The translations under genes and the position numbers were made by a program. Below the pieces are notes generated by a model. That model worked only from the letters and a program-made list of their open reading frames with translations. It did not search any database and was not told where the DNA came from. This document shows positions 521 to 33,195 of a DNA stretch of 51,914 bases, piece after piece. Position 1 is the first letter of the stretch; each line of letters begins with the position of its first letter. This stretch comes from Candidatus Aeolococcus gillhamiae (lineage in GTDB: Bacteria > Chloroflexota > Dormibacteria > Aeolococcales > Aeolococcaceae): contig QHBU01000079.1 of assembly GCA_003244045.1 (NCBI GenBank), positions 1 to 51,914 of the forward strand. The letters are read 5' to 3'.

Positions 521-1399
521 TCATGGACGCGACGAGACGGCAACGCGGCGGATGCCGTCGGGCCGGAGCAGGATCAGGGTGACAAGCGCCATGAGGCCGA
601 ACGCGTCCGCCCAGCTGGAGCCGATCATCACCTGTGCTACGGCGTCCAGCGTTCCGAGGATCACTCCGCCCGCGGCGGCGCCGCGGAGCGAGCCGCCGCC
701 GATGATCGCCGCGGTGAAGGCGAGCAACGTGATCCGCCACCCCGCCCCAGCACCCGCGCTGCGCACATGTGCGGCCAGCAGCACCCCTCCGCAGGCCCCG
801 ACCAGCCCCGCGCAGGCGTAGACGTACGCCGCCAGACGGCGCACCGGGATGCCGGTGAGCGCGGCGCCGAGCGGATCGTCCCTGACCGCCACCAGTGCTC
901 GGCCCCAGCGTCGATGAAACAGCAGCGAGGTGGCTGCCCCGACAACCGCGAGCAGTACGGCTGCGCCGAGAGCGGTGGTATCAAGGGCAGTGCTGCCGAC
1001 GACCACCGACCCGGTTCCCAGCACGGGCGGAAAGGACCGGTCGTCAGCTCCGAAGGGAGCCAGAGTGAGGTTGCGCAGCACCAGCGCTGCGCCGACCGTG
1101 GCGATGATCGGCGCAAGGCGGTCGGCGCCTCCGCGAAGTGGTCCCACCACGAGGTGGTCGACGAGGAGCGATGCCGCCATCGCCGCGGCAAGCGCCACGG
1201 CTACCGCCAGTGGAAGGTTACGAGTTGCGGCGTACACAACTGCCGAGAACACGGTGGCAAGCCCGATGGTGTCACCGAAGGCGAGATTTGCCTCGCCGAG
1301 CATGTGATACGCAGCGGTGAAGCCGACGGCGAGCAGCGCATAGAGCCCCCCGAGAGAGAGCGCAACCGCAATCGTGCTGGCAAGTAGCTGGCTGCTCAC
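521..1399 (-). CDS. Branched-chain amino acid ABC transporter permease (LivH-like)
   Basis: Polytopic inner-membrane permease of 292 residues, the usual LivH length, with about eight hydrophobic segments. The LivH-type cytoplasmic coupling loop is visible as GRALVAVRDDPLGAALTGI (about residues 180-200), and the conserved GG(S/A)LRGA loop follows near residue 240. I chose the GTG at 1399 because the protein then begins directly with the first hydrophobic segment (VSSQLLASTIAVALSLGGLY). The open frame extends further upstream to 1792 but that extension is antisense-like sequence overlapping the SRPBCC gene. It is followed after 25 bp by the substrate-binding lipoprotein gene, so the two very likely work together. 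The specific substrate cannot be told. Confidence 0.9.
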   Translation of the reverse strand: MSSQLLASTIAVALSLGGLYALLAVGFTAAYHMLGEANLAFGDTIGLATVFSAVVYAATRNLPLAVAVALAAAMAASLLVDHLVVGPLRGGADRLAPIIATVGAALVLRNLTLAPFGADDRSFPPVLGTGSVVVGSTALDTTALGAAVLLAVVGAATSLLFHRRWGRALVAVRDDPLGAALTGIPVRRLAAYVYACAGLVGACGGVLLAAHVRSAGAGAGWRITLLAFTAAIIGGGSLRGAAAGGVILGTLDAVAQVMIGSSWADAFGLMALVTLILLRPDGIRRVAVSSRP

Positions 1400-1440
1400 A
1401 GGCGCCGGGCACGCCCGACCAGAGACCCCAGTCGCATCTC

Positions 1441-1878
1441 TCAGCGCGTCCGATTCAGGTGGGTTCTCAGGCTGGCATCGGCCTTCCTGCCGACGCGGTT
1501 GAACACGAGTTGCATCAAAGGGTCGGCGATGCGGGAGATGCCCTTGAACACCAGTCGCGCGTCGTAGGTCACCGTGGAGGCGGAACCTGCCGGGACGATC
1601 GTGATGGTGTCGACAGAGCCAAACGTGCCGTTCCACGCTTCGAGCACGACACGTCTGCCTGCGTCGAACTCCGTGATCTCGTAGCGCAGCGGCACGCTGC
1701 GGCCGGCAAACTTCGACACGATCCGGAACGCCGATCCCATGCCGAGCGCGCCAGAGTCCAGCCGCCGCGCCTCGACGACGCTGGGATCCCATTCCGAGGC
1801 GTTGTCGAAGCTGGCCATGTACTCGAATGCATCGACAGGCGAGAGCATTGAATCGACCGAGGTCGTGTAGCGCGCCAT
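1441..1878 (-). CDS. SRPBCC / polyketide-cyclase-like ligand-binding protein
   Basis: A 145-residue protein with the START/SRPBCC helix-grip pattern: it begins ARYTTSVDSMLSPVDAFEYM (membrane-less, cytoplasmic), has the WDPSVVEARRL segment after the first helices, and ends in a long amphipathic C-terminal helix (FNRVGRKADASLRTHL). This family binds hydrophobic ligands and often covers actinobacterial CoxG-like or cyclase-like proteins. No catalytic residues can be named. The ATG at 1878 is preceded by a good Shine-Dalgarno (GAGAGGTGA, about 6 nt away). It is the first gene of the leftward group with LivH 41 bp downstream, but a functional link to the transporter is only inferred from position. 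Confidence 0.82.
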   Translation of the reverse strand: MARYTTSVDSMLSPVDAFEYMASFDNASEWDPSVVEARRLDSGALGMGSAFRIVSKFAGRSVPLRYEITEFDAGRRVVLEAWNGTFGSVDTITIVPAGSASTVTYDARLVFKGISRIADPLMQLVFNRVGRKADASLRTHLNRTR

Positions 1879-2080
1879 CGTGTCACCTCTCGAACCTATA
1901 CGTTAACATCCTACGGAACAAGCGCCCGGGCGGATCAGCGCCGCCTCGGCCGAATCGGGCTCTCGCCAGAGCGACAGGAAACATCCTTCATGATGCGGCT
2001 CCCACGCGGCCGCTGCAGTTGGCTTCCTTTGTCGGCATGACAAGAGAGAGGTGGGAACGCCGGAGACGAGTCGCGCTCCC

Positions 2081-2109
2081 TTCAGTCCGGCGCTGCCAGT
2101 CCCTAGAGT
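2081..2109 (+). promoter_or_regulatory. Candidate leaderless promoter of the exchanger gene
   Basis: A -10-like TAGAGT at 2104-2109 lies exactly 6 nt before the GTG start at 2116, with a weak -35-like TTCAGT at 2081-2086 (17-nt spacer). There is no Shine-Dalgarno. Transcription would begin at or next to the start codon. The rest of the 237-bp gap (1879-2115) shows nothing else I can support. Confidence 0.45.
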
Positions 2110-2115
2110 GGCGCG

Positions 2116-3054
2116 GTGAACGCCCCCCTGTCCGTCCTCGCATTCGTCGCAGGTGTAGCCTTAGTTGTTGCCGCAACCGAGCGATTGCTCGAAGGCTTGG
2201 TCGGGATTGCCAGCGCGCTTCGACTTGCACCGTTTGTGGTGAGCGCGGTTCTCTCCGGCCTTGAGGCTGAAAATATTGCGGTCGGATTGATCGCCGGGCA
2301 CAACAATCAGGCTGAGATCGCCTTGGGCACGGCATTCGGCGGCGCGACCTTCCTTGTCTGCATAGCGCTTGGCCTCGGTGCAGTCGTGGCTCCCCTGCGG
2401 GTCACGTTGCCGAAGGGCGTTGTGTACTTGCTGGCCGGTGCGCCGATTGTGTCTGGTCTCGCTCTGCTTGGGGGTACCACCGCGCGTCTATCAGGGGTCG
2501 TGTTGCTACTCGCGTTTGCTGCCGCGATGATGTACTTGGTCAGCGCTTCGAAGAATCACACGTTTGTCGACTCCAGCGAAGTACGAGAGGCTCTGCAGGA
2601 ACCGTGCAAATTGTGGGTATCAGCGATTGTGTCCATCGCTGGCATTGCCGTCATCACTGGAGGCGGAGAGCTAGTCGCGCAGGGCGCTTCCGGAGTCATC
2701 TCCGCTTTCGGTGTACCGGCTCTACTGATGGGCATGGTGATTACCCCTGCGGCGATAGAAGCAGAGGAGGTGGTCCGCCAGATCGTCCCCGCCAAACGAG
2801 GCTTTCCGGATGTCGCCGCCGGCAACGTGATCGGAACCGTGCTGTATTTCACTCTGTTCAACCTCGGATTGATCGCTCTAATCACCCCGGTCGCGGTCCC
2901 AAGGCTTACTCGACTTCTCGATTGGCCCTTCCTGGTCGGCGTCTCGCTACTGGCGGCGTTCTTTCTGCTGCGTGGACGCGTCACCAGGTTGGGCGGCTTG
3001 GTCCTGGTGGTTCTGGGAGTGACCTACGGAGCCCTTCATGTGTTCGCCCGATGA
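2116..3054 (+). CDS. Sodium/calcium exchanger (CaCA) family membrane protein
   Basis: A 312-residue membrane protein with about ten transmembrane segments and the two inverted alpha-repeats of the CaCA superfamily. The first repeat reads VLSGLEAENIAVGL with HNNQAEIALGTAFGG behind it (about residues 45-78). The second reads ITPAAIEAEEVVRQI with DVAAGNVIGTV behind it (about 208-245). The paired acidic residues (E in LEAEN and in AIEAEE) sit where cation-coordinating glutamates lie in YrbG/NCX proteins, though the surrounding motifs are divergent. The likely role is cation/proton or Na+/Ca2+ antiport across the cytoplasmic membrane. It starts with GTG and seems leaderless. It stands alone between divergently oriented groups. 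Confidence 0.85.
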   Translation: MNAPLSVLAFVAGVALVVAATERLLEGLVGIASALRLAPFVVSAVLSGLEAENIAVGLIAGHNNQAEIALGTAFGGATFLVCIALGLGAVVAPLRVTLPKGVVYLLAGAPIVSGLALLGGTTARLSGVVLLLAFAAAMMYLVSASKNHTFVDSSEVREALQEPCKLWVSAIVSIAGIAVITGGGELVAQGASGVISAFGVPALLMGMVITPAAIEAEEVVRQIVPAKRGFPDVAAGNVIGTVLYFTLFNLGLIALITPVAVPRLTRLLDWPFLVGVSLLAAFFLLRGRVTRLGGLVLVVLGVTYGALHVFAR

Positions 3055-3133
3055 GCCCCGCCTGGGACTTCAGTGCGGACTCCAGGGGCAGGGCGCGCCC
3101 ATCCCGAAGGGGCGGCGGTGCCAGCCAGAGTTG

Positions 3134-3341
3134 CAGCGGGTCGGTCTCGGCAAGCGGGGTCCCAGGACTTTCATCCACGCAGCGTCGGCGATGGCACGGT
3201 AGGCGGCGGGATCAAACGGCGTTTGCAGCTCGGCCACGCCCTCGAAGAAGCGCTCCATCCCTGCCGGCGTGAACATCACGAGGAGCCTCGCCGGCTCGTC
3301 GCCGACGTTCTGAAAACAGTGAGGCGTGCCGCACCGCACGC
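3134..3341 (-). pseudogene. Cupin-domain protein, 3' remnant with frameshift
   Basis: The minus strand encodes the C-terminal part of a small cupin: CGTPHCFQNVGDEPARLLV, then FTPAGMERFFEGVAEL. Everything upstream of the cupin's second half is missing: homology begins abruptly at about 3338, where the plus-strand MMPL reading begins. Near the 3' end the frame also breaks. WMKVLGP runs on in frame as RLPRPT, while the expected family ending LAETDPL is found one frame over, consistent with a one-base loss in the G/C run at about 3156-3161. The remnant therefore has two lesions and cannot make a working cupin. I see no start codon with a ribosome-binding site. Confidence 0.7.
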
Positions 3342-5144
3342 TTGATCGGGCACGCCCAGACCGGCGACGGGGCATTTCTGACCAAGGACGGCCGCACCGA
3401 GTATTCGTACGCCTTCGATCCTCGCCAGAAGGGATTCATCGCCCCCAACCAGGCGCTGCTCGAGCACGCGATCGCGGTCAACGCGCCAACGGGAACGACC
3501 GGATACGTCACCGGCCTCGACCCGCTGGCCCAGACCACCGGCTCGTCATCCGGCCCCGGGGTGCTGCTCGAGACCATCCTCGGCGGTCTCGGTGCCCTGG
3601 CCGTGCTCGTGTTCGTCTTCGCCTCGCTGCTGGCGCTCATCCCGCTGGCGATCGCGGTTGTGGCCATCCTGACGACCTTCCTCGTCCTCCTCGGCGTCAC
3701 CTACGTCGCGGATATCAGCTTCATCGTGCAGTTCCTCGTCTCGCTCATCGGACTGGGTGTGGCGATCGACTACTCGCTGCTGATCGTCACCCGGTGGCGC
3801 GAGGAACGCGGTCATGGGCGCTCCAACCACGAAGCGGTCCTCGCCGCCATGGACACCGCGGGACGTGCGGTGGTGTTCAGCGGCCTGACCGTCGCGATCG
3901 GCCTGCTCGCGCTAGTGGTGATCCCCGTGCCGTTTCTGCGGTCGATCGGCTTCGGAGGCATGCTGATCCCGCTGGTCAGCGTCGCCGTGGCCATGACGCT
4001 GCTGCCGGCCATCCTGGCGAGCATCGGTCCGCGCGTCGACTGGCCGCGGATCCGCAAAGAGAGCAGGGCCAGTCCGTTCTGGACGCGCTGGGGGCGGCTC
4101 ATCGTCCGCCGGCGCGTGGTTGCCGCCGTCTCGGCGGCGGTCATTCTCGTGGGGCTGGCGATCCCTTACGTGAGCCTGCAGATCGGCCAGGCGTCATCGA
4201 ACTCGCTGGCCACTACGGGACCGGCGGTTGACGGACTGCACGCGCTCGACGCCGCGGGCGTCCCTCGCGGTGCGCTGACGCCGATGATCGTGCTGACCAT
4301 GTCCGGTGGGCAGACGGCGGTGGTCCAACGTCTCCGCGGTGTCGGCGCACTCTTCGATGTCACCGCCACCACGGATCCCGCCGACGCGCGCAACGGGACG
4401 ACGCTCCTGCTGGCGGTGCCGCAGCAGGAGACATCCAACGCCGACACCATCGACGTGGTGCGCCAGGTCCGCGCAGCGCTCTCCGGGACGCCGCCGGCGC
4501 TCGGGGTCAGCGGCGTCGGCCCGCTGCAACTTGACTACCAGGCGGGCGTGTACGGCAACCTCCCATACGTGATCCTTGTGATCGTGGTGGTCACGTTCCT
4601 GCTGCTGGCGCGCGCCTTCCGATCGCTGCTCCTGCCGCTGAAGGCAGTCCTCCTCAACCTGCTCTCCCTGGCCGCGACCTTCGGCGGATTGGTACTGTTC
4701 TGGCAGTGGGGCCACGGCTCCAGCCAGGTGTTCGGCATCGCCCCGACCGGATCGATCACCTTCTGGTTGCCAGTGATGATCTTTGCGTTCCTCTTCGGTC
4801 TGTCGATGGACTATGAGGTGTTCATCCTCAGCCGAATCCGCGAGGAGTACGACCATGCCGGTAACACCGATGCAGCGGTGATCACCGGCCTCGGCCGGAC
4901 CGGGCGGCTGGTGACGTCGGCGGCACTCATCCTCTTCCTGGCCTTCATCTCGCTGGCGAGCGGCCCGCAGACGGACATCAAGGTGTTCGCAACCGGCCTC
5001 GGGTTCGGCATCCTCTTGGATGCAACCGTGGTGCGCATGCTCCTCGTCCCCGCATTGGTGTCGATGTTCGGGCGGTGGAACTGGTACATGCCCAGAGCGC
5101 TGGCCCGGGTCCTGCGTGTGCCCGCCTCGCAGAGCGGCGCCTGA
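3342..5144 (+). CDS. MMPL/RND-family transporter, N-terminally truncated
   Basis: A 600-residue membrane protein of the MMPL family, which exports lipids or drugs. Two blocks of transmembrane segments are present, each with the family signature: GLGVAIDYSLLIVTRWREE in the first half and LFGLSMDYEVFILSRIREE in the second (the charged/Tyr pairs of the proton relay), plus the second extracytoplasmic domain between them. Intact relatives begin with a transmembrane helix and a first extracytoplasmic domain of well over 100 residues. Here only the last approximately 60 residues of that domain (from GDGAFLTKDGRT) precede TM2. The proposed TTG start has no Shine-Dalgarno and the frame stays open into the cupin remnant. 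The gene is thus probably non-functional although its remaining frame is intact. It ends 2 bp before the aldo/keto reductase pseudogene. Confidence 0.8.
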   Translation: MIGHAQTGDGAFLTKDGRTEYSYAFDPRQKGFIAPNQALLEHAIAVNAPTGTTGYVTGLDPLAQTTGSSSGPGVLLETILGGLGALAVLVFVFASLLALIPLAIAVVAILTTFLVLLGVTYVADISFIVQFLVSLIGLGVAIDYSLLIVTRWREERGHGRSNHEAVLAAMDTAGRAVVFSGLTVAIGLLALVVIPVPFLRSIGFGGMLIPLVSVAVAMTLLPAILASIGPRVDWPRIRKESRASPFWTRWGRLIVRRRVVAAVSAAVILVGLAIPYVSLQIGQASSNSLATTGPAVDGLHALDAAGVPRGALTPMIVLTMSGGQTAVVQRLRGVGALFDVTATTDPADARNGTTLLLAVPQQETSNADTIDVVRQVRAALSGTPPALGVSGVGPLQLDYQAGVYGNLPYVILVIVVVTFLLLARAFRSLLLPLKAVLLNLLSLAATFGGLVLFWQWGHGSSQVFGIAPTGSITFWLPVMIFAFLFGLSMDYEVFILSRIREEYDHAGNTDAAVITGLGRTGRLVTSAALILFLAFISLASGPQTDIKVFATGLGFGILLDATVVRMLLVPALVSMFGRWNWYMPRALARVLRVPASQSGA

Positions 5145-26888: not shown

Positions 26889-26925
26889 GTCGCCAGGGTA
26901 GAAGTTAAAGTAAGCCTTATGTCAA
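26882..26925. promoter_or_regulatory. Overlapping face-to-face promoters of SDR and soxR-like genes
   Basis: Leftward: TTGACA (complement of 26920-26925), 19-nt spacer, TACCCT (complement of 26895-26900), ATG 6 nt on. Rightward: TTGTCA (26882-26887), 18-nt spacer, TAAAGT (26906-26911), ATG 7 nt on. The two promoters occupy the same 44 bp, each -35 touching the other gene's start codon. A weak AAG-N11-CTT dyad is centred in the 19-nt spacer. Confidence 0.6.
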
Positions 26926-27392
26926 GTGGGGTGAGCGTGCGCAGTGACGACCACCTTCCCATTGGCGAGGTGGCGCGCCGGGCGGGCTTTGCCGCCTCGG
27001 CCCTGCGCTACTACGAGAAGGAGAGCCTGATCAGCGGAGCGCGCAGCGACGGGGGCCAGCGCCGCTACCCGCGCAGCGTGCTTCGCAGGCTCGCGTTCAT
27101 CCGGGCCGCCCAGAATGTTGGGCTGTCGCTCGACGAGATCCGGGCCGCGCTGGCCGCGCTGCCCGAGTCGCGCGTTCCGACCAAGGCCGATTGGGCGCGT
27201 CTTTCCAGCTCCTGGCGCAGCCGGCTCGACGAGCAGATCGCTGGGCTCGTGGCGCTGCGCGACGGACTGTCTACGTGCATCGGTTGTGGGTGCCTGTCGC
27301 TCCGCCGCTGCGCACTGTCCAACCCCAGCGACGTCGCCGCTGGGGCTGGCGCAGGCGCGCGGTTCCTCCCCTCGTCTCTCCGGCGACCCTAG
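26919..27392 (+). CDS. SoxR-like redox-sensing MerR-family regulator
   Basis: A 157-residue MerR-family protein. The DNA-binding domain reads LPIGEVARRAGFAASALRYY, then GGQRRYPRSVLRRLAFIRAA; a dimerisation helix follows, and then the SoxR-type [2Fe-2S] cluster ligands in CIGCGCLSLRRC (CX2CXCX5C). SoxR proteins are activated by redox-cycling compounds through cluster oxidation. The ATG at 26919 fits the family N-terminus and lies 7 nt after a TAAAGT -10 box. The only obvious target is the divergent SDR-QueA-like operon, which has the stretched 19-nt promoter spacer. The C-terminal tail (after the cluster) is Ala/Gly-rich, about 28 residues. Confidence 0.93.
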   Translation: MSSGVSVRSDDHLPIGEVARRAGFAASALRYYEKESLISGARSDGGQRRYPRSVLRRLAFIRAAQNVGLSLDEIRAALAALPESRVPTKADWARLSSSWRSRLDEQIAGLVALRDGLSTCIGCGCLSLRRCALSNPSDVAAGAGAGARFLPSSLRRP

Positions 27393-27633: not shown

Positions 27634-27645
27634 TAGGCTGCTCCG

Positions 27646-28095
27646 ATGGCCTCGCCCGACGTCCACGTCCTCGGCCGCACCGCCGGCTCTGATGACAGCG
27701 ACGAGACCGCGAGCGTCGCCACCGCCGGCAGTGTCGACACCCGGTGGAGCGTCGCCACCGCCGGGAGCGTGCGCACGCGCGCCAGTGTTGCCATGGCGGG
27801 CAGCGTAGCGACCTACGCCAGCGTCGCCACCGCTGGAAGCGCAGGGACTGCGGCCAGCGCGATGACCGCCGGCAGCGCGGCGACCGTGGCCAGCGTGGCC
27901 ACCGCCGGAAGTGCGCTGACCGTCCTCAGCGCCGGCGTCGCCGGCTCGGTGCTCAGCGTTCTCTCGGTCGCGTTGCGTGGCTGCGTGGCGTGCGTCGCCT
28001 GCGTGCGCTGCACGCGGTGTATCGCCTGCTTTCGCTGCGTTGACTGCAGCGGCCTGGTCGGAGCCGTGGGCAGCACCGGCGTGCACAAGGGCTAG
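27646..28095 (+). CDS. Hexad-repeat (beta-solenoid-like) protein with a terminal ladder of eight cysteines
   Basis: A 149-residue protein of no family I recognise. From residue 24 to 137 it consists of 19 uninterrupted six-residue units V-x-T-x-x-S (for example VATAGS, VRTRAS, VATYAS). In the last units the Thr and Ser positions both become Cys (VAC-VAC, VRC-TRC, IAC-FRC), giving eight Cys at residues 113, 116, 119, 122, 125, 128, 131 and 134. The units differ mostly at third codon positions (Gly-Ser-Val is spelled several ways), which argues for selection on the protein. The hexad form recalls left-handed beta-helices, with the Cys ladder as a stacked edge or metal-binding face. No signal peptide. 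A TAGGCT -10 box lies 6 nt before the ATG, so it is probably leaderless and monocistronic. Confidence 0.75.
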   Translation: MASPDVHVLGRTAGSDDSDETASVATAGSVDTRWSVATAGSVRTRASVAMAGSVATYASVATAGSAGTAASAMTAGSAATVASVATAGSALTVLSAGVAGSVLSVLSVALRGCVACVACVRCTRCIACFRCVDCSGLVGAVGSTGVHKG

Positions 28096-28338: not shown

Positions 28339-29709
28339 TCAGCTACGCGAGCCGGTGTTCTCCGCGACACTCACCGCCGCCGAGGCGGCCCGCCGGCCGG
28401 TCAGCAGCACCGGCCGGGCAACGAATTGATCGTCGCGCTCGATGCGACCCGGCGCCACGTCGCCGCCGAAGTACGCCGGGAGGAAGAAGGCGTAGAGGAA
28501 CGCGGCGAAGATGGTTTGTGCGCCAAGGACGCAGAGGACCAGCGCGGCGATGCCGGGCCGCACCTCCTGCAGTGGTCCGAAGCCCTCGGTGGCCCACTTG
28601 ATGGCAATGGCGGCGCCGGCGAGGACGCCGATGCCGAGCACGCCGGCGCCGCCCAGCAGCGTTCGCTCGATGGTGAGACGGCGGTTGACGAAATCGGACA
28701 ACCGGTCAGTGACCCCGGTCGGTAGCGGCAGACAGACGCGCACCAGCACCCCCAGCTGAATCATCTGCCAGCCGATGATGGTCAGGACGGCACCGACGAG
28801 CATGGGGTGCAGGACCAGGTTGATGGGCCCGAGGTGCACAGGGCCGAAGGTCATGGGGATGACCAACGCGAGCCCGAGCACAAAGGCGAAGATGCCGGGG
28901 ATCAGGTACAGCCAGGTTGGGCTCGCCAGCAGCAGGAACTTGAGGTGGCGCCACCCGTCGGGCCACGTCTGCAGCTTGGATTCACCGACGCGTGGGTGGT
29001 ACGGGATGGGCATCTCGCCGACCCGCAGCTTGGCCCGCGCGGCCTGCACGATCATCTCGGAGGCGTACTCCATCCCCGGCGTCCTCAGCCCCAGCGAGGC
29101 GTAGGCGCGCGCGTCGATCGCGCGCATCCCGCTGTGGGCGTCCGAGACGGTGATGTTGAAGAAGCGGTTGAGGAGCCGGGTCAGGATCGGGTTGCCGATG
29201 TAGCGGTGCTTCCATGGCATCGCCTTCTTGCCGATCGCACCCATGAGCCGGCTGCCGATCACCATGTCGGAGGTGCCGTACAGAACCGGGTAGGCCAGCT
29301 CAGGAATCGCCTGCATCGGGTAGGTCCCGTCCGCGTCGGCCATGACCAGGACCTGGCCGCGCGCGGCGGCCATCCCTGCGTGGTAGGCGTTGCCGTACCC
29401 GCGCACTGGCGCGCTCACGACGCGGGCACCGGCGGCCTCGGCGATCTCGGCGGAGGCGTCGGTGGAACCGTTGTCGGCGACGATCACCTCGCCATCAAGT
29501 CCGGCCTCGCGCAAGGCAGCGAACGCCTCGCGGATCACCGTCCCGACCGAGCCGGCCTCATCGAGGCACGGGAGGACGACGCTCACGAGGGGGGAGTCGG
29601 GGTCGGCGGCCCGCCGAAGCTCGAGCATCTGCCGCCCCGCCCGGTCGACGGTCGCGACAGGCGAAGGCGCACGGCGTCGCGGGACACCCACCGGCAAGAA
29701 GGACTTCAC
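28339..29709 (-). CDS. GT2 glycosyltransferase with C-terminal membrane domain (DPM-synthase-like)
   Basis: A 456-residue protein. Residues about 40-250 are a GT-A domain: LVSVVLPCLDEAGSVGTVIR, VIVADNGSTDASAEIAE, the metal site VMADADGTYP, and SDAHSGMRAIDARAYASLGL, as in polyprenyl-phosphate mannose/glucose synthases. After that come four predicted transmembrane segments (from LLLASPTWLYLIPGIFAFVL to LGAQTIFAAFLYAFFLPAYF). It would make a lipid-linked sugar at the cytoplasmic face that membrane GT-C enzymes such as the one at 36832 can use. The GTG start at 29709 has only a close-set AAGGGA; a start nearer residue 28 is possible. It lies downstream of the GH5-like gene on the same strand (74-bp gap). 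Confidence 0.88.
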   Translation of the reverse strand: MKSFLPVGVPRRRAPSPVATVDRAGRQMLELRRAADPDSPLVSVVLPCLDEAGSVGTVIREAFAALREAGLDGEVIVADNGSTDASAEIAEAAGARVVSAPVRGYGNAYHAGMAAARGQVLVMADADGTYPMQAIPELAYPVLYGTSDMVIGSRLMGAIGKKAMPWKHRYIGNPILTRLLNRFFNITVSDAHSGMRAIDARAYASLGLRTPGMEYASEMIVQAARAKLRVGEMPIPYHPRVGESKLQTWPDGWRHLKFLLLASPTWLYLIPGIFAFVLGLALVIPMTFGPVHLGPINLVLHPMLVGAVLTIIGWQMIQLGVLVRVCLPLPTGVTDRLSDFVNRRLTIERTLLGGAGVLGIGVLAGAAIAIKWATEGFGPLQEVRPGIAALVLCVLGAQTIFAAFLYAFFLPAYFGGDVAPGRIERDDQFVARPVLLTGRRAASAAVSVAENTGSRS

Positions 29710-29783
29710 ATCCCTTCTAACGACGGACCATGCAATCCCTTGCAGCGTGCGACGAGATCACCCGTGGCCGGCCACAGAACCTC

Positions 29784-31115
29784 TCAGCCGAGCCAGCCGT
29801 CGAGTGTGACAGCGACGCGCGCCATGACGGCTTCGGTGGGATCGCCGGGCTGGACCTCATAGTTGTCCGTGCGTGGGCCCGCCGCGTACTGCCAGATCAG
29901 GAAGCCCGCGATGCCCGCGCCGAATTGAGCCTGCAACTTCTCCTTGAGGAACGAGGCACGCTGCGCCAGCGACGCCGCCGTGACCGGCCCGCCGGTGCTC
30001 CCATCCGCGGCGATCGACGCCTGGAGGCCGACTTCGCCCGCGAAGATCGGCTTGTTGAGCGAATGGCACTGGTTGATGCGTACTGCAACGCCGTGCCACT
30101 GGTCACCTGGCAGCCCGCCGCGGCCGAAGTAGTCATGGTATTCGCAGATGTCGATGAGGCCGGAGTGGAGGTTCAGGAAGTCGGACGTGCTCGAGGTGCC
30201 GCACTGGCCTGTGGCGATGGTGCCAAGGCTCACCAGGTGGCCTCGGTCATTGACCTTGATGATCCCGGCGACGTCGTCGGCGAAGGAGCGAAGAGCGGCA
30301 TTGGCGGCCGCGTCCTCACAGGCACTCCCGACGCCGTCGAGGGCCTCGGCCTCGTTGACCAGCTGCCAGAAGGCGATGGTCGGGTTGTTCCGGTAGTGGG
30401 CGGCGATCGCAGCGGCGTAGTCCCGGTACGACAGGCTGTAGCCGTAGTCGACGGCGCGATATCCCGACTGGTACCAGGCGAGCGTGCGGTACGGCGCCTG
30501 CCCGGCCGGCCACGGTTCGCACGCCGCCCACTGGTCGGCGAGGACCGGGATCACCTTCATCCCACGCGCGGCAGCGGCCGACAGGACGTGATCGAACTGG
30601 CTCCAGTTGCCGGGCCCGCCGTATGCCTGCATGAACCAGGTCCGCACCACGGTTGCCCCGGAGTTGTTGCGGATCTCGTCCAGGGCCGCGGCCACGTCAG
30701 CGCTGCTCTGCGCACCACCGCACTGGTGGCCGGGCGACGCCGAGGTCAGGCGGTAGTCGTCGTAGCCGGCAAACTGCCAGGGACTGCCGTTCAGCATCAG
30801 CGAGGTGCCGTTGCGGCTGACCAGCCCCGATCCACCGGCGGCACCGGCTGAGGGGCCAGCCGATGCGGTCGGATGCGCGCTTGCGGCGGAGGGGTTCGAA
30901 CCCGCGGCGCCGCCGGCGCTCCGTTGGCCGGCGGTTCCTGACAGACCAGTGGAAGGGTTGTTCCCGGACGCCGACGTCCCTGCGGCCGACGGGAGGGAGT
31001 GGAGGAGGTCCGCGCCGAATCGAAGGGTGCCGTCAGCGTTGCCGTGCGGCGTCTCGCCTCCCGCCGCGAAGCCGGCGCAGCAGAGCACCGCCGCCAGGAG
31101 GGGCGCGCCGACCAC
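29784..31115 (-). CDS. Secreted GH5-like (cellulase/mannanase-type) glycoside hydrolase
   Basis: A 443-residue exported enzyme. A hydrophobic N-terminus (GAPLLAAVLCCAGFAAGG, two cysteines) is followed by a Ser/Gly/Ala-rich linker to about residue 95 and then a (beta/alpha)8 catalytic domain. It starts NGTSLMLNGSPWQFAGYDDY; the acid/base Glu is in FWQLVNEAEA (Glu255) and the nucleophile Glu in IFAGEVGLQA (Glu361), the pattern of GH5 and related clan GH-A mannanases. Six or more Cys in the catalytic domain suggest disulfides. The GTG start at 31115 leaves no basic n-region; translation may begin upstream at a rarer codon. It probably trims a surface or environmental beta-glycan, and sits divergent from the exosortase operon. 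Confidence 0.82.
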   Translation of the reverse strand: MVGAPLLAAVLCCAGFAAGGETPHGNADGTLRFGADLLHSLPSAAGTSASGNNPSTGLSGTAGQRSAGGAAGSNPSAASAHPTASAGPSAGAAGGSGLVSRNGTSLMLNGSPWQFAGYDDYRLTSASPGHQCGGAQSSADVAAALDEIRNNSGATVVRTWFMQAYGGPGNWSQFDHVLSAAAARGMKVIPVLADQWAACEPWPAGQAPYRTLAWYQSGYRAVDYGYSLSYRDYAAAIAAHYRNNPTIAFWQLVNEAEALDGVGSACEDAAANAALRSFADDVAGIIKVNDRGHLVSLGTIATGQCGTSSTSDFLNLHSGLIDICEYHDYFGRGGLPGDQWHGVAVRINQCHSLNKPIFAGEVGLQASIAADGSTGGPVTAASLAQRASFLKEKLQAQFGAGIAGFLIWQYAAGPRTDNYEVQPGDPTEAVMARVAVTLDGWLG

Positions 31116-31416
31116 CGATCGGTGGCTGAGCTGGCGCAGGCGGGCAAAGGGGCGGGAGATGGCTGGTCCTCGTCATCGACGGTCCGTGGGGCCAGACCGG
31201 GGGGCGATGCCGATTCACCGTATTCGGGGCAGGGACTCGCTGCGGTGACCTTCGGCTAACGCTCATGCGACGAACCGGGTGCCATGGCGCGCTCGCTGCG
31301 TGCAAGTTTTCCCGTAGGGCGGTCGTTCTTGTGGGTGAACTTCCGCGGAGCCTTCTCAGGTGGCGCGCAGCGCCCGGGGACCAGCCTGACCTCCATGGAA
31401 GGGAGGAGACTCTTCA
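31116..31416. other. Divergent intergenic region of the surface-glycan locus
   Basis: About 300 bp between the leftward glycosidase and rightward exosortase genes. The only clear element is the exosortase ribosome site, GGGAGGAG, about 10 nt before a TTG start. I find no convincing riboswitch, terminator or short ORF; the promoters for both directions must lie here. Confidence 0.5.
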
Positions 31417-33195
31417 TTGAGCGCGGCATCCTCGCTTCTCGCGCGGCTTCTCGCGCGTGCCCGCGACGTCGGCGGCCGGCAGGCGGACGCCTTCCTTACC
31501 TGGGCCCGTCAGCACCGCGCGCTCTGGCCCGCGGCGGCCATCGTGCTGGTGACGGTGGTCGGGTACAGCCTGACGCTGGGCAGCATGTTCGACTACCTGC
31601 GCCTGGAGACGCCGCTGGCCTACCTGCCGCTGCTGCCCTTCTTCGCCCTCGGCATCGCGCTGTTCACCGCGCATCGCTACCGCAACGTCAGCGCGGGGAT
31701 TCGGGATCGCCAGATCGACTTCCTCATCGGCATTCCGATGATTGTCTTCGCTCTGTTGCTGATCACCATCGTGCCGGCGCTGGCCTCCACCTACTACTGG
31801 AGCAACCGGCCGGACGTCCTCTCGATGGCGCTGTTCGCGGGTGGGCTGATCACCATCTTCTACGGGATCAACTGGTTCTGGCGGCTCAAGAGTGCGCTCG
31901 TCTTCCTGGTGCTGATGTGGCCGGCGCTCTACCTCAACATCATGCCGGGGCTGATGCAGTCCTTCACGGACGCCACCAACAGCGCGCTGGGCAAGGTGGT
32001 GCACCTGCTCCCGCTGGGCGTCTCGCTGACGGGATCACCGGGGATCCTCTCGGTCCACCAGGCGAGCGGCGCGCCGCTGACCGTCAGCGTGGGAACCGCG
32101 TGTTCGGGCGCGGACTCGGTTCTCGGGTTCCTGCTCATCGGCGCGGCAATTCTCACCGCCGTCGGCGGCGGCGGCATTCGCAAGTTCCTCTGGATGGTGT
32201 TCGGCCTGGCGCTCACGTTCGCGGTCAATGTCTTCCGGTTGACGTCCATCCTGGCCCTGGCGTCGGCAGGCCACCCCGATCTCGCGCTCGGCGGCTACCA
32301 CGCGGTGATCGGACTGATCCTGTTCACGCTGGTGATCGCGGCGATGATGCGGCTGCTGCCGATCTTCGGACTCCACCCACGACCCGACGTTGTGCAGACA
32401 GGCAGATCGCGGCAGTTGACCGCGATCGCTCCGCGTCGCCCCACACTCCGCCGGCGCCGGGCCACCATCGGCATCATGGCGGCGCTGGCCGTCCTCGTCG
32501 GGCTCGCCAACCAGGGTTTGGCGCCCTACGCCGCCTTCCAGGACGGCACTGGCTCGCCGAGCGTGGTGCCGTTTTCGATCGGATCGGCACCGGGGGGGAT
32601 GCAGGTCAGCTTCTACCAGGAATACCCGTGGGCCAAGCAGTACTTTGGCGCGAACTCGACCTTCACCCGCTACTACTTGAGCGGGATCCCGACACCGCCC
32701 AAACCGGCGACGGCGACGGCGAAGACGACAAGCCTGGTGCAGTCGAACCTCGTCTACGCGGACGTGGTCCGCACGGACGACAAGGGTTCGCTGGACGCGT
32801 ACAACCTGCAGAATTGCTTCCTCTTTCACAACTACAGCATCTCCACCTCGCAGCGGATCGACATCGGCAGCGGCGTCACCGCGTTGCTGCTCAACTACCA
32901 GGCCCCCGGCAACCCGCCGCAGCGCTGGGCCAGCGTGTCATGGGCATGGCCCGTCGACTACAAGGGACAGACCTACTACGAGCGCGTCACGCTGACGTCG
33001 AGCCTGACCACCGGGGGCGCCGACGCCGACGTCTCGCCAAGCGGCGGCTTCCAGGGGATGCTGGTCAGCTTCCTGAACCTGCTCAACGGTAGTCACGACG
33101 ATCCCAAGCTCGACGCGAAGTACAAGAGTGCCGACGCGCTGCTTCGCGCCGACGCGGCGGCACTCGTCAGCCACGCGGTCAAGCACCGGGTCTGA
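31417..33195 (+). CDS. Exosortase with EpsI-like C-terminal domain
   Basis: A 592-residue polytopic membrane protein. The first 320 residues form an exosortase/archaeosortase core with about eight helices and the Cys-Arg-His triad: Cys229 in GTACSGADSVLGFLLIG, Arg274 in FAVNVFRLTSIL and His295 in GGYHAVIGLILF. These cysteine-protease-like enzymes cut C-terminal PEP-CTERM-type signals and transfer the protein to a surface acceptor. After a basic linker and another helix (residues about 345-365) comes an extracytoplasmic EpsI-like domain, as in the exopolysaccharide-associated Xrt-EpsI fusions. The TTG start has a strong ribosome site. Downstream, 2 bp on, is the giant glycosyltransferase; candidate substrates lie at 42072 and 44529. 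Confidence 0.9.
   Translation: MSAASSLLARLLARARDVGGRQADAFLTWARQHRALWPAAAIVLVTVVGYSLTLGSMFDYLRLETPLAYLPLLPFFALGIALFTAHRYRNVSAGIRDRQIDFLIGIPMIVFALLLITIVPALASTYYWSNRPDVLSMALFAGGLITIFYGINWFWRLKSALVFLVLMWPALYLNIMPGLMQSFTDATNSALGKVVHLLPLGVSLTGSPGILSVHQASGAPLTVSVGTACSGADSVLGFLLIGAAILTAVGGGGIRKFLWMVFGLALTFAVNVFRLTSILALASAGHPDLALGGYHAVIGLILFTLVIAAMMRLLPIFGLHPRPDVVQTGRSRQLTAIAPRRPTLRRRRATIGIMAALAVLVGLANQGLAPYAAFQDGTGSPSVVPFSIGSAPGGMQVSFYQEYPWAKQYFGANSTFTRYYLSGIPTPPKPATATAKTTSLVQSNLVYADVVRTDDKGSLDAYNLQNCFLFHNYSISTSQRIDIGSGVTALLLNYQAPGNPPQRWASVSWAWPVDYKGQTYYERVTLTSSLTTGGADADVSPSGGFQGMLVSFLNLLNGSHDDPKLDAKYKSADALLRADAAALVSHAVKHRV

Follow-up and report, generated by a model that had tools for sequence, protein, structure and literature searches.

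An undescribed bacterial protein family in which a period-3 Ser/Thr ladder turns into a Cys ladder

Described solenoids and Cys repeats

In the 12-residue coil of the beetle hyperactive antifreeze proteins (TmAFP/DhbAFP, 1EZG), residues 2, 5, 8, and 11, that is, every third residue, point inward, and the core contains Cys (PMC8038014). The ladder protein described here is encoded in a window of 51,914 nucleotides (the whole stretch of DNA that was analysed). It likewise has a 12-residue repeat, residues of period 3 that would face inward, and Cys in the putative core. However, the ladder family lacks the TCT ice-binding motif (its consensus is SVAVAGSAxTxx), carries Cys at one end only, where they occupy all putative inner positions rather than one pair per coil, and is bacterial with no obvious signal peptide. 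There is no detectable sequence match to the beetle β-helix, and no match to it in a Foldseek search of the PDB at E 0.001.

The Cys segment resembles phrog_15341, found in Campylobacter phages and in the IMG/VR arrays L113 and L114, in its unbroken Cys at every third residue. The segment matches the phrog_15341 profile with an E-value of 9e-4 for the window protein and 2e-7 for the M. gordonae protein. In contrast to the ladder family, phrog_15341 proteins lack a Ser/Thr ladder; their N-terminal cap is distinct, and Cys run through the entire repeat. The likeness is one of pattern and does not prove descent. In L113 and L114 (about 1147–3647), at least five pure Cys-ladder genes form a tandem array, the longest with dozens of Cys each; the proteins share an N-terminal cap like WITDANGNRASV.RWGS.EAARAAL.SL, and those of L113 match phrog_15341. 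In the Campylobacter phages (Eucampyvirinae; P0001 and P0002), the proteins with Cys at every third residue are encoded at 622–1047 of L115 and 625–1185 of L116, next to helicase and phosphoesterase genes, and are hypothetical where annotated.

Like the ladder family, two Ser-ladder proteins from the bacterial class of the window genome (L015 and L021, SILSIGSAG repeats) have Ser at a period of 3, flanked by aliphatic residues and Gly/Ala. They have no Cys ladder, their E-values are weak (6.8e-4 and 0.009), and the relationship is unproven. Bactofilin (PF04519) and the hexapeptide and pentapeptide solenoids are also built of Val/Ala/Gly/Ser repeats, some of them membrane-anchored, but differ in period and unit. 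Only one of 34 members matches PF04519 (E 0.069), and the window protein does not.

No member scanned matches a Pfam or NCBIfam model above cut-off, and literature searches by architecture and peptide strings returned no paper on the ladder family or on the pure-Cys phage proteins, in agreement with the sequence-only reading, which knew of no described family with this pattern. What is new is an undescribed family whose putative core switches from Ser/Thr to Cys, on a type of coil that is probably already known.

The gene and its repeat pattern

The ladder gene is a real protein-coding gene (Table 1). The GC content of its codon positions 1, 2, and 3 is 0.64/0.69/0.88, and the third position resembles that of the neighbouring genes. 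Pairwise dN/dS between homologues is 0.07–0.38, which indicates purifying selection on the protein. An open reading frame of 229 residues overlaps on the minus strand, and the ladder frame could in principle be a spurious one beside or opposite the true gene. However, GC at position 3 is highest in the plus frame, whereas the minus-strand frame has its high GC at position 1, and the low dN/dS together with conservation across phyla refutes such an artefact, the chance of which we put at practically nil. A gene on the other strand, named in advance as an outcome that would overturn the sequence-only reading, is ruled out by the codon-position GC and dN/dS.

The hexamer TAGACT, similar to the probable -10 element of the window gene, lies 6–8 bases before the ATG in six homologues from another genus of the same family, whereas four other homologues of the family lack the element. 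The position of the hexamer suggests a leaderless mRNA.

Table 1 Features of the ladder gene in the window
Feature	Position	Strand	Basis
Ser/Thr-to-Cys ladder CDS, 149 aa	27646–28095	+	Codon-position GC, homologue dN/dS, 77% identical homologue in same genus
-10 promoter element TAGGCT, probable	27634–27639	+	6 bases before ATG, read from sequence
Ser/Thr ladder, residues 23–107, 12-residue unit VATAGS-VxTxxS	27712–27966	+	Sequence, phase and lag counts
Junction VALRG, residues 108–112, in phase with both ladders	27967–27981	+	Phase counted in 34 homologues
Cys ladder, residues 113–134, eight Cys three apart	27982–28047	+	Sequence; Cys columns in 34 homologues
Gly-rich conserved tail SGLVGAVGSTGVHKG, residues 135–149, family form GLRGAVGxxGV	28048–28092	+	Alignments A1, A2

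Residues 24–137 of the window protein consist of 19 ungapped hexads, as the sequence-only reading had reported. The columns largely follow its V-x-T-x-x-S form, with Val usual rather than fixed: the first column holds V 13, A 5, and I 1, the third T 11, C 4, and one each of M, V, S, and L, and the sixth S 14, C 4, and L 1. The ladder of eight Cys that it had derived from the Thr and Ser columns is borne out: the Cys lie exactly three residues apart (113, 116, 119, 122, 125, 128, 131, and 134) and alternate between the earlier Ser column and the Thr column. One phase modulo 3 holds 35 of the 37 Ser/Thr/Cys of residues 22–137, compared with a maximum of 23 in 20,000 shuffles. CxxCxxCxxC occurs nowhere else in the six frames of the window, and a DNA pattern that encodes five Cys so spaced has four matches, all in the ladder gene, where 0.03 are expected. 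Chance does not account for this regularity. The 12-residue units differ from each other most at the third codon position, though not overwhelmingly (0.25, 0.44, and 0.53 for positions 1, 2, and 3), which agrees with the earlier observation on the copies.

The pattern is kept in an alignment of 34 homologues (A2), the basis of our consensus and profile. The consensus comprises the 12-mer SVAVAG-SAxTxx, a short junction, V-x-C triplets, and GLRGAVGxxGV. The repeat and the Cys spacing are thus retained in homologues with dN/dS well below 1, as the homologue search proposed earlier was meant to establish. A single phase modulo 3 holds 368 of the 372 Cys, and 656 of the 754 Ser/Thr upstream of the Cys part are on that same phase. 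Therefore, the two ladders are one continuous pattern. Five Cys (C115, C121, C124, C127, and C130 in the numbering of the Actinomycetospora homologue L046) are invariant, and changes in the length of the Cys ladder are multiples of 3.

The hexads are present, but the repeat unit is 12 residues, not the six proposed at first. In the 34 homologues, lag 12 gives a self-identity of 0.65, compared with 0.42 for lags 6 and 18 and ~0.16 for odd multiples of 3. The excess at lag 12 makes a six-residue unit and an 18-residue hexapeptide helix less likely. As read from the sequences, the 12-residue rhythm runs on through the Cys part. The residue before each Cys alternates roughly as two bulky or charged and two Gly/Ala, and this small-versus-bulky pattern of the outer residue recurs at 12 residues rather than 6 or 18, with a concordance of 0.73 overall. 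Counting distinct patterns only, the concordance is 0.67, compared with 0.51 for shuffles, which keep the shared ancestry. In addition, many members have Arg and Asp 12 residues apart in the Cys ladder, as expected for stacked partners.

Fold and possible role of the Cys ladder

The AlphaFold2 model of the window protein, made from 11 sequences, is poor (pLDDT 44). For the homologue L046, 34 sequences give a solenoid-like model with a pLDDT of 79 and a pTM of 0.61, the other four of the five models being lower. In this model, three-residue strands recur every six residues, and one-residue bridges recur every three in the Cys part. AlphaFold2 is reported to build confident yet unrealistic β-solenoids from repeats (PMC11795689). 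For this reason, and because four of the five models are lower, the L046 model gives moderate support only. Foldseek finds no match in the PDB at E 0.001 (best E 0.26); the highest-ranking viral model is that of a Mimiviridae 'TNFR-Cys' protein (E 6.8e-6). With this support from the models, the ladder protein probably folds as a very tight solenoid. The tight β-solenoid of the sequence-only reading is thus backed by the homologue but not by the window protein's own model. Of the polar Thr/Ser face that was to become a Cys face, the change from Ser/Thr to Cys stands; the face itself is more probably an inward core column than an exposed one, to judge by the period of 3 in a 12-residue coil, as in the beetle antifreeze protein.

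The reading that we prefer, with a probability of roughly 0.45, is a small stand-alone tight β-solenoid with an all-Cys core at one end that binds a soft metal. The 12-residue repeats would wind into a very tight parallel β-solenoid, which in the window protein would have ~9–10 coils. The Ser, Thr, or Val at every third position would face inward and make up the core. The inward positions of the final two or three coils would turn into Cys, four per coil and 8–14 in the family, and the stacked coils would line the core with thiols. The thiols would most likely hold a soft metal (Zn2+, Cu+, or an Fe-S cluster), capping or cross-linking the rod, and the Gly-rich tail would terminate it. In one lineage, the N-terminal hydrophobic segment would be a membrane anchor. 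We infer the inward Cys, the bound metal, and the cellular role; the Cys ladder may bind metal. The low pLDDT of the window model and the lack of PDB matches count against this reading, as do gene neighbourhoods with no consistent link to metal handling. Stacked outward Val is unusual in a soluble monomer. Therefore, oligomerisation or membrane contact may be involved.

The same tight solenoid could instead hold a stack of disulfides, in which Cys six residues apart pair across one coil and staple the C-terminal cap, in an exported protein or under oxidising conditions. Such pairing matches that of C2 with C8 in the beetle coil (PMC8038014), and the N-terminal hydrophobic segment, found only in one Dormibacterota genus (g6) and in L030, could export the remainder of these Dormibacterota members. 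However, the window protein has no such segment, and inspection of the homologue sequences reveals no obvious export signal in most members, the window protein included. In addition, the number of Cys per protein, 8 to 14, is often odd (9, 11, and 13 occur), and there are four Cys per coil versus two in the beetle protein. We consider a disulfide stack unlikely. Metal coordination is likelier than disulfides, because the Cys should be reduced in proteins with no export signal and their number is not always even. For the same reasons, the pure disulfide cap is weaker than the metal wire or the redox scaffold, the other two roles suggested by the sequence-only reading.

Next in rank, and also rather unlikely, is a low-complexity protein that is disordered or associated with the membrane. 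The repeat would then lack a defined fold and the Cys segment alone would be important, for instance as a metal sink similar to metallothionein. In favour of this reading are the hydrophobic stretch at residues 88–123 (KD over 1.6), the poor model of the window protein, and the weak resemblance of the Cys segment to CXXC zinc domains. However, the strict phase, the 12-residue unit, and the invariant Ser/Thr columns imply a fold, and an α-helix is incompatible with a strict period of 3.

A bolder form of the metal-binding solenoid, which we regard as doubtful, has metal ions or clusters standing in a row inside the Cys core. It would be a metal or redox wire encased in protein at the end of an insulating rod of Ser/Thr. 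Mycobacteria and soil Dormibacterota would carry such a wire, and phages would have a pure-Cys form. There is a natural series, all Ser/Thr, mixed, and all Cys, among apparent tight period-3 solenoids. With this series, one could ask whether metals can be held in a row by four inward Cys per coil. The series would also be a natural test set for the reality of the β-solenoids that AlphaFold2 builds from natural repeats.

A collagen-like triple helix or polyproline-II bundle would likewise have a period of 3, and 11 of the 34 members give sub-threshold matches to Pfam Collagen (best E 0.0001). However, Gly makes up 36% and Ala 34% of the Gly phase, the three proteins counted contain 0–1 Pro, and the 12-residue superperiod is foreign to collagen. 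L046 scores 18 bits against PF01391, below the curated cut-off of 27.2, and the family lacks the strict Gly at every third residue that defines collagen. We regard this reading as very improbable, and reject it on the sub-cut-off score and the Gly share of the phase. Least probable of all for a genuine protein, and rejected because the modifying enzymes are missing from most carrier genomes, is a RiPP precursor whose Ser, Thr, and Cys, the substrates of such enzymes, become azoles or lanthionines as in heterocycloanthracin-like bacteriocins: three of 11 members weakly match TIGR03601 of NCBIfam (E 0.31), but YcaO is absent from 14 and LanC-like proteins from 15 of the 20 carrier genomes, the window genome (84% complete) has neither, no neighbours are conserved across clades, and dN/dS is low along the entire length.

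Distribution and genomic neighbourhood

The family is conserved and undescribed, has no name and no Pfam or NCBIfam model, and is widespread, occurring in soil Dormibacterota and many mycobacteria. In the window's Dormibacterota family, the ladder protein is clear in 12 of the 32 genomes searched, including the window genome (2.96 Mb in 302 contigs), and is cut by the contig end in one more. The nearest homologue, from Candidatus Amunia macphersoniae isolate Mitchell_Peninsula (Candidatus Dormiibacterota), belongs to the same genus; homologues across the family are 55–60% identical. A pattern scan of GTDB genomes gave 35 loci, in Pseudonocardia, Actinomycetospora, Desertimonas, Acidimicrobiaceae, Ilumatobacteraceae, Mycobacterium, and some MAGs. 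The mycobacterial carriers include M. gordonae, M. asiaticum, and others, and Acidimicrobiia also carry the family. The A2 profile detects the ladder protein in 63 of 148 genomes of the M. gordonae genus, in 9 of 150 genomes of the family that includes Actinomycetospora, and in 5 of 296 genomes sampled from the Desertimonas phylum. As a rule, there is one ladder gene per genome. A Polyangiaceae MAG gives an isolated match, the single one among 141 genomes of its phylum, possibly owing to transfer or misbinning. The 'Acidobacteria' label of MAG REEB489 is probably wrong, because the sample based on REEB489 consisted of the same genomes as that for Actinomycetota. Searches of plasmid and phage collections with tblastn gave no match to the ladder gene, and the two IMG/VR loci are of a different, pure-Cys type; we therefore reject a plasmid- or phage-borne gene.

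Comparison of the loci reveals no neighbour gene common across clades and nothing that points consistently to metal handling. Neighbours are shared within clades only, and we reject an operon partner. One Dormibacterota genus has an MFS transporter upstream and, by eye, a convergent dihydroxyacid-dehydratase-like gene downstream, and the mycobacterial loci share neighbours other than those of Dormibacterota. On M. gordonae contig L108, a 130-residue open frame with a collagen-like GSVGVP repeat lies on the minus strand ~150 kb from the ladder gene. Directly upstream of the ladder gene in the window, a SoxR-type MerR regulator with a CIGCGCLS...C [2Fe-2S] motif is encoded on the same strand (26922–27392), and the L064 homologue has another SoxR-type gene two genes upstream. 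SoxR-type genes near two of about 36 loci may be due to chance. At 28339–33195 of the window, a gene for an exosortase-family protein (PF09721, 31417–33195) lies near a glycosyltransferase gene and a cellulase-like gene, and the region is probably an exopolysaccharide or surface-protein locus.
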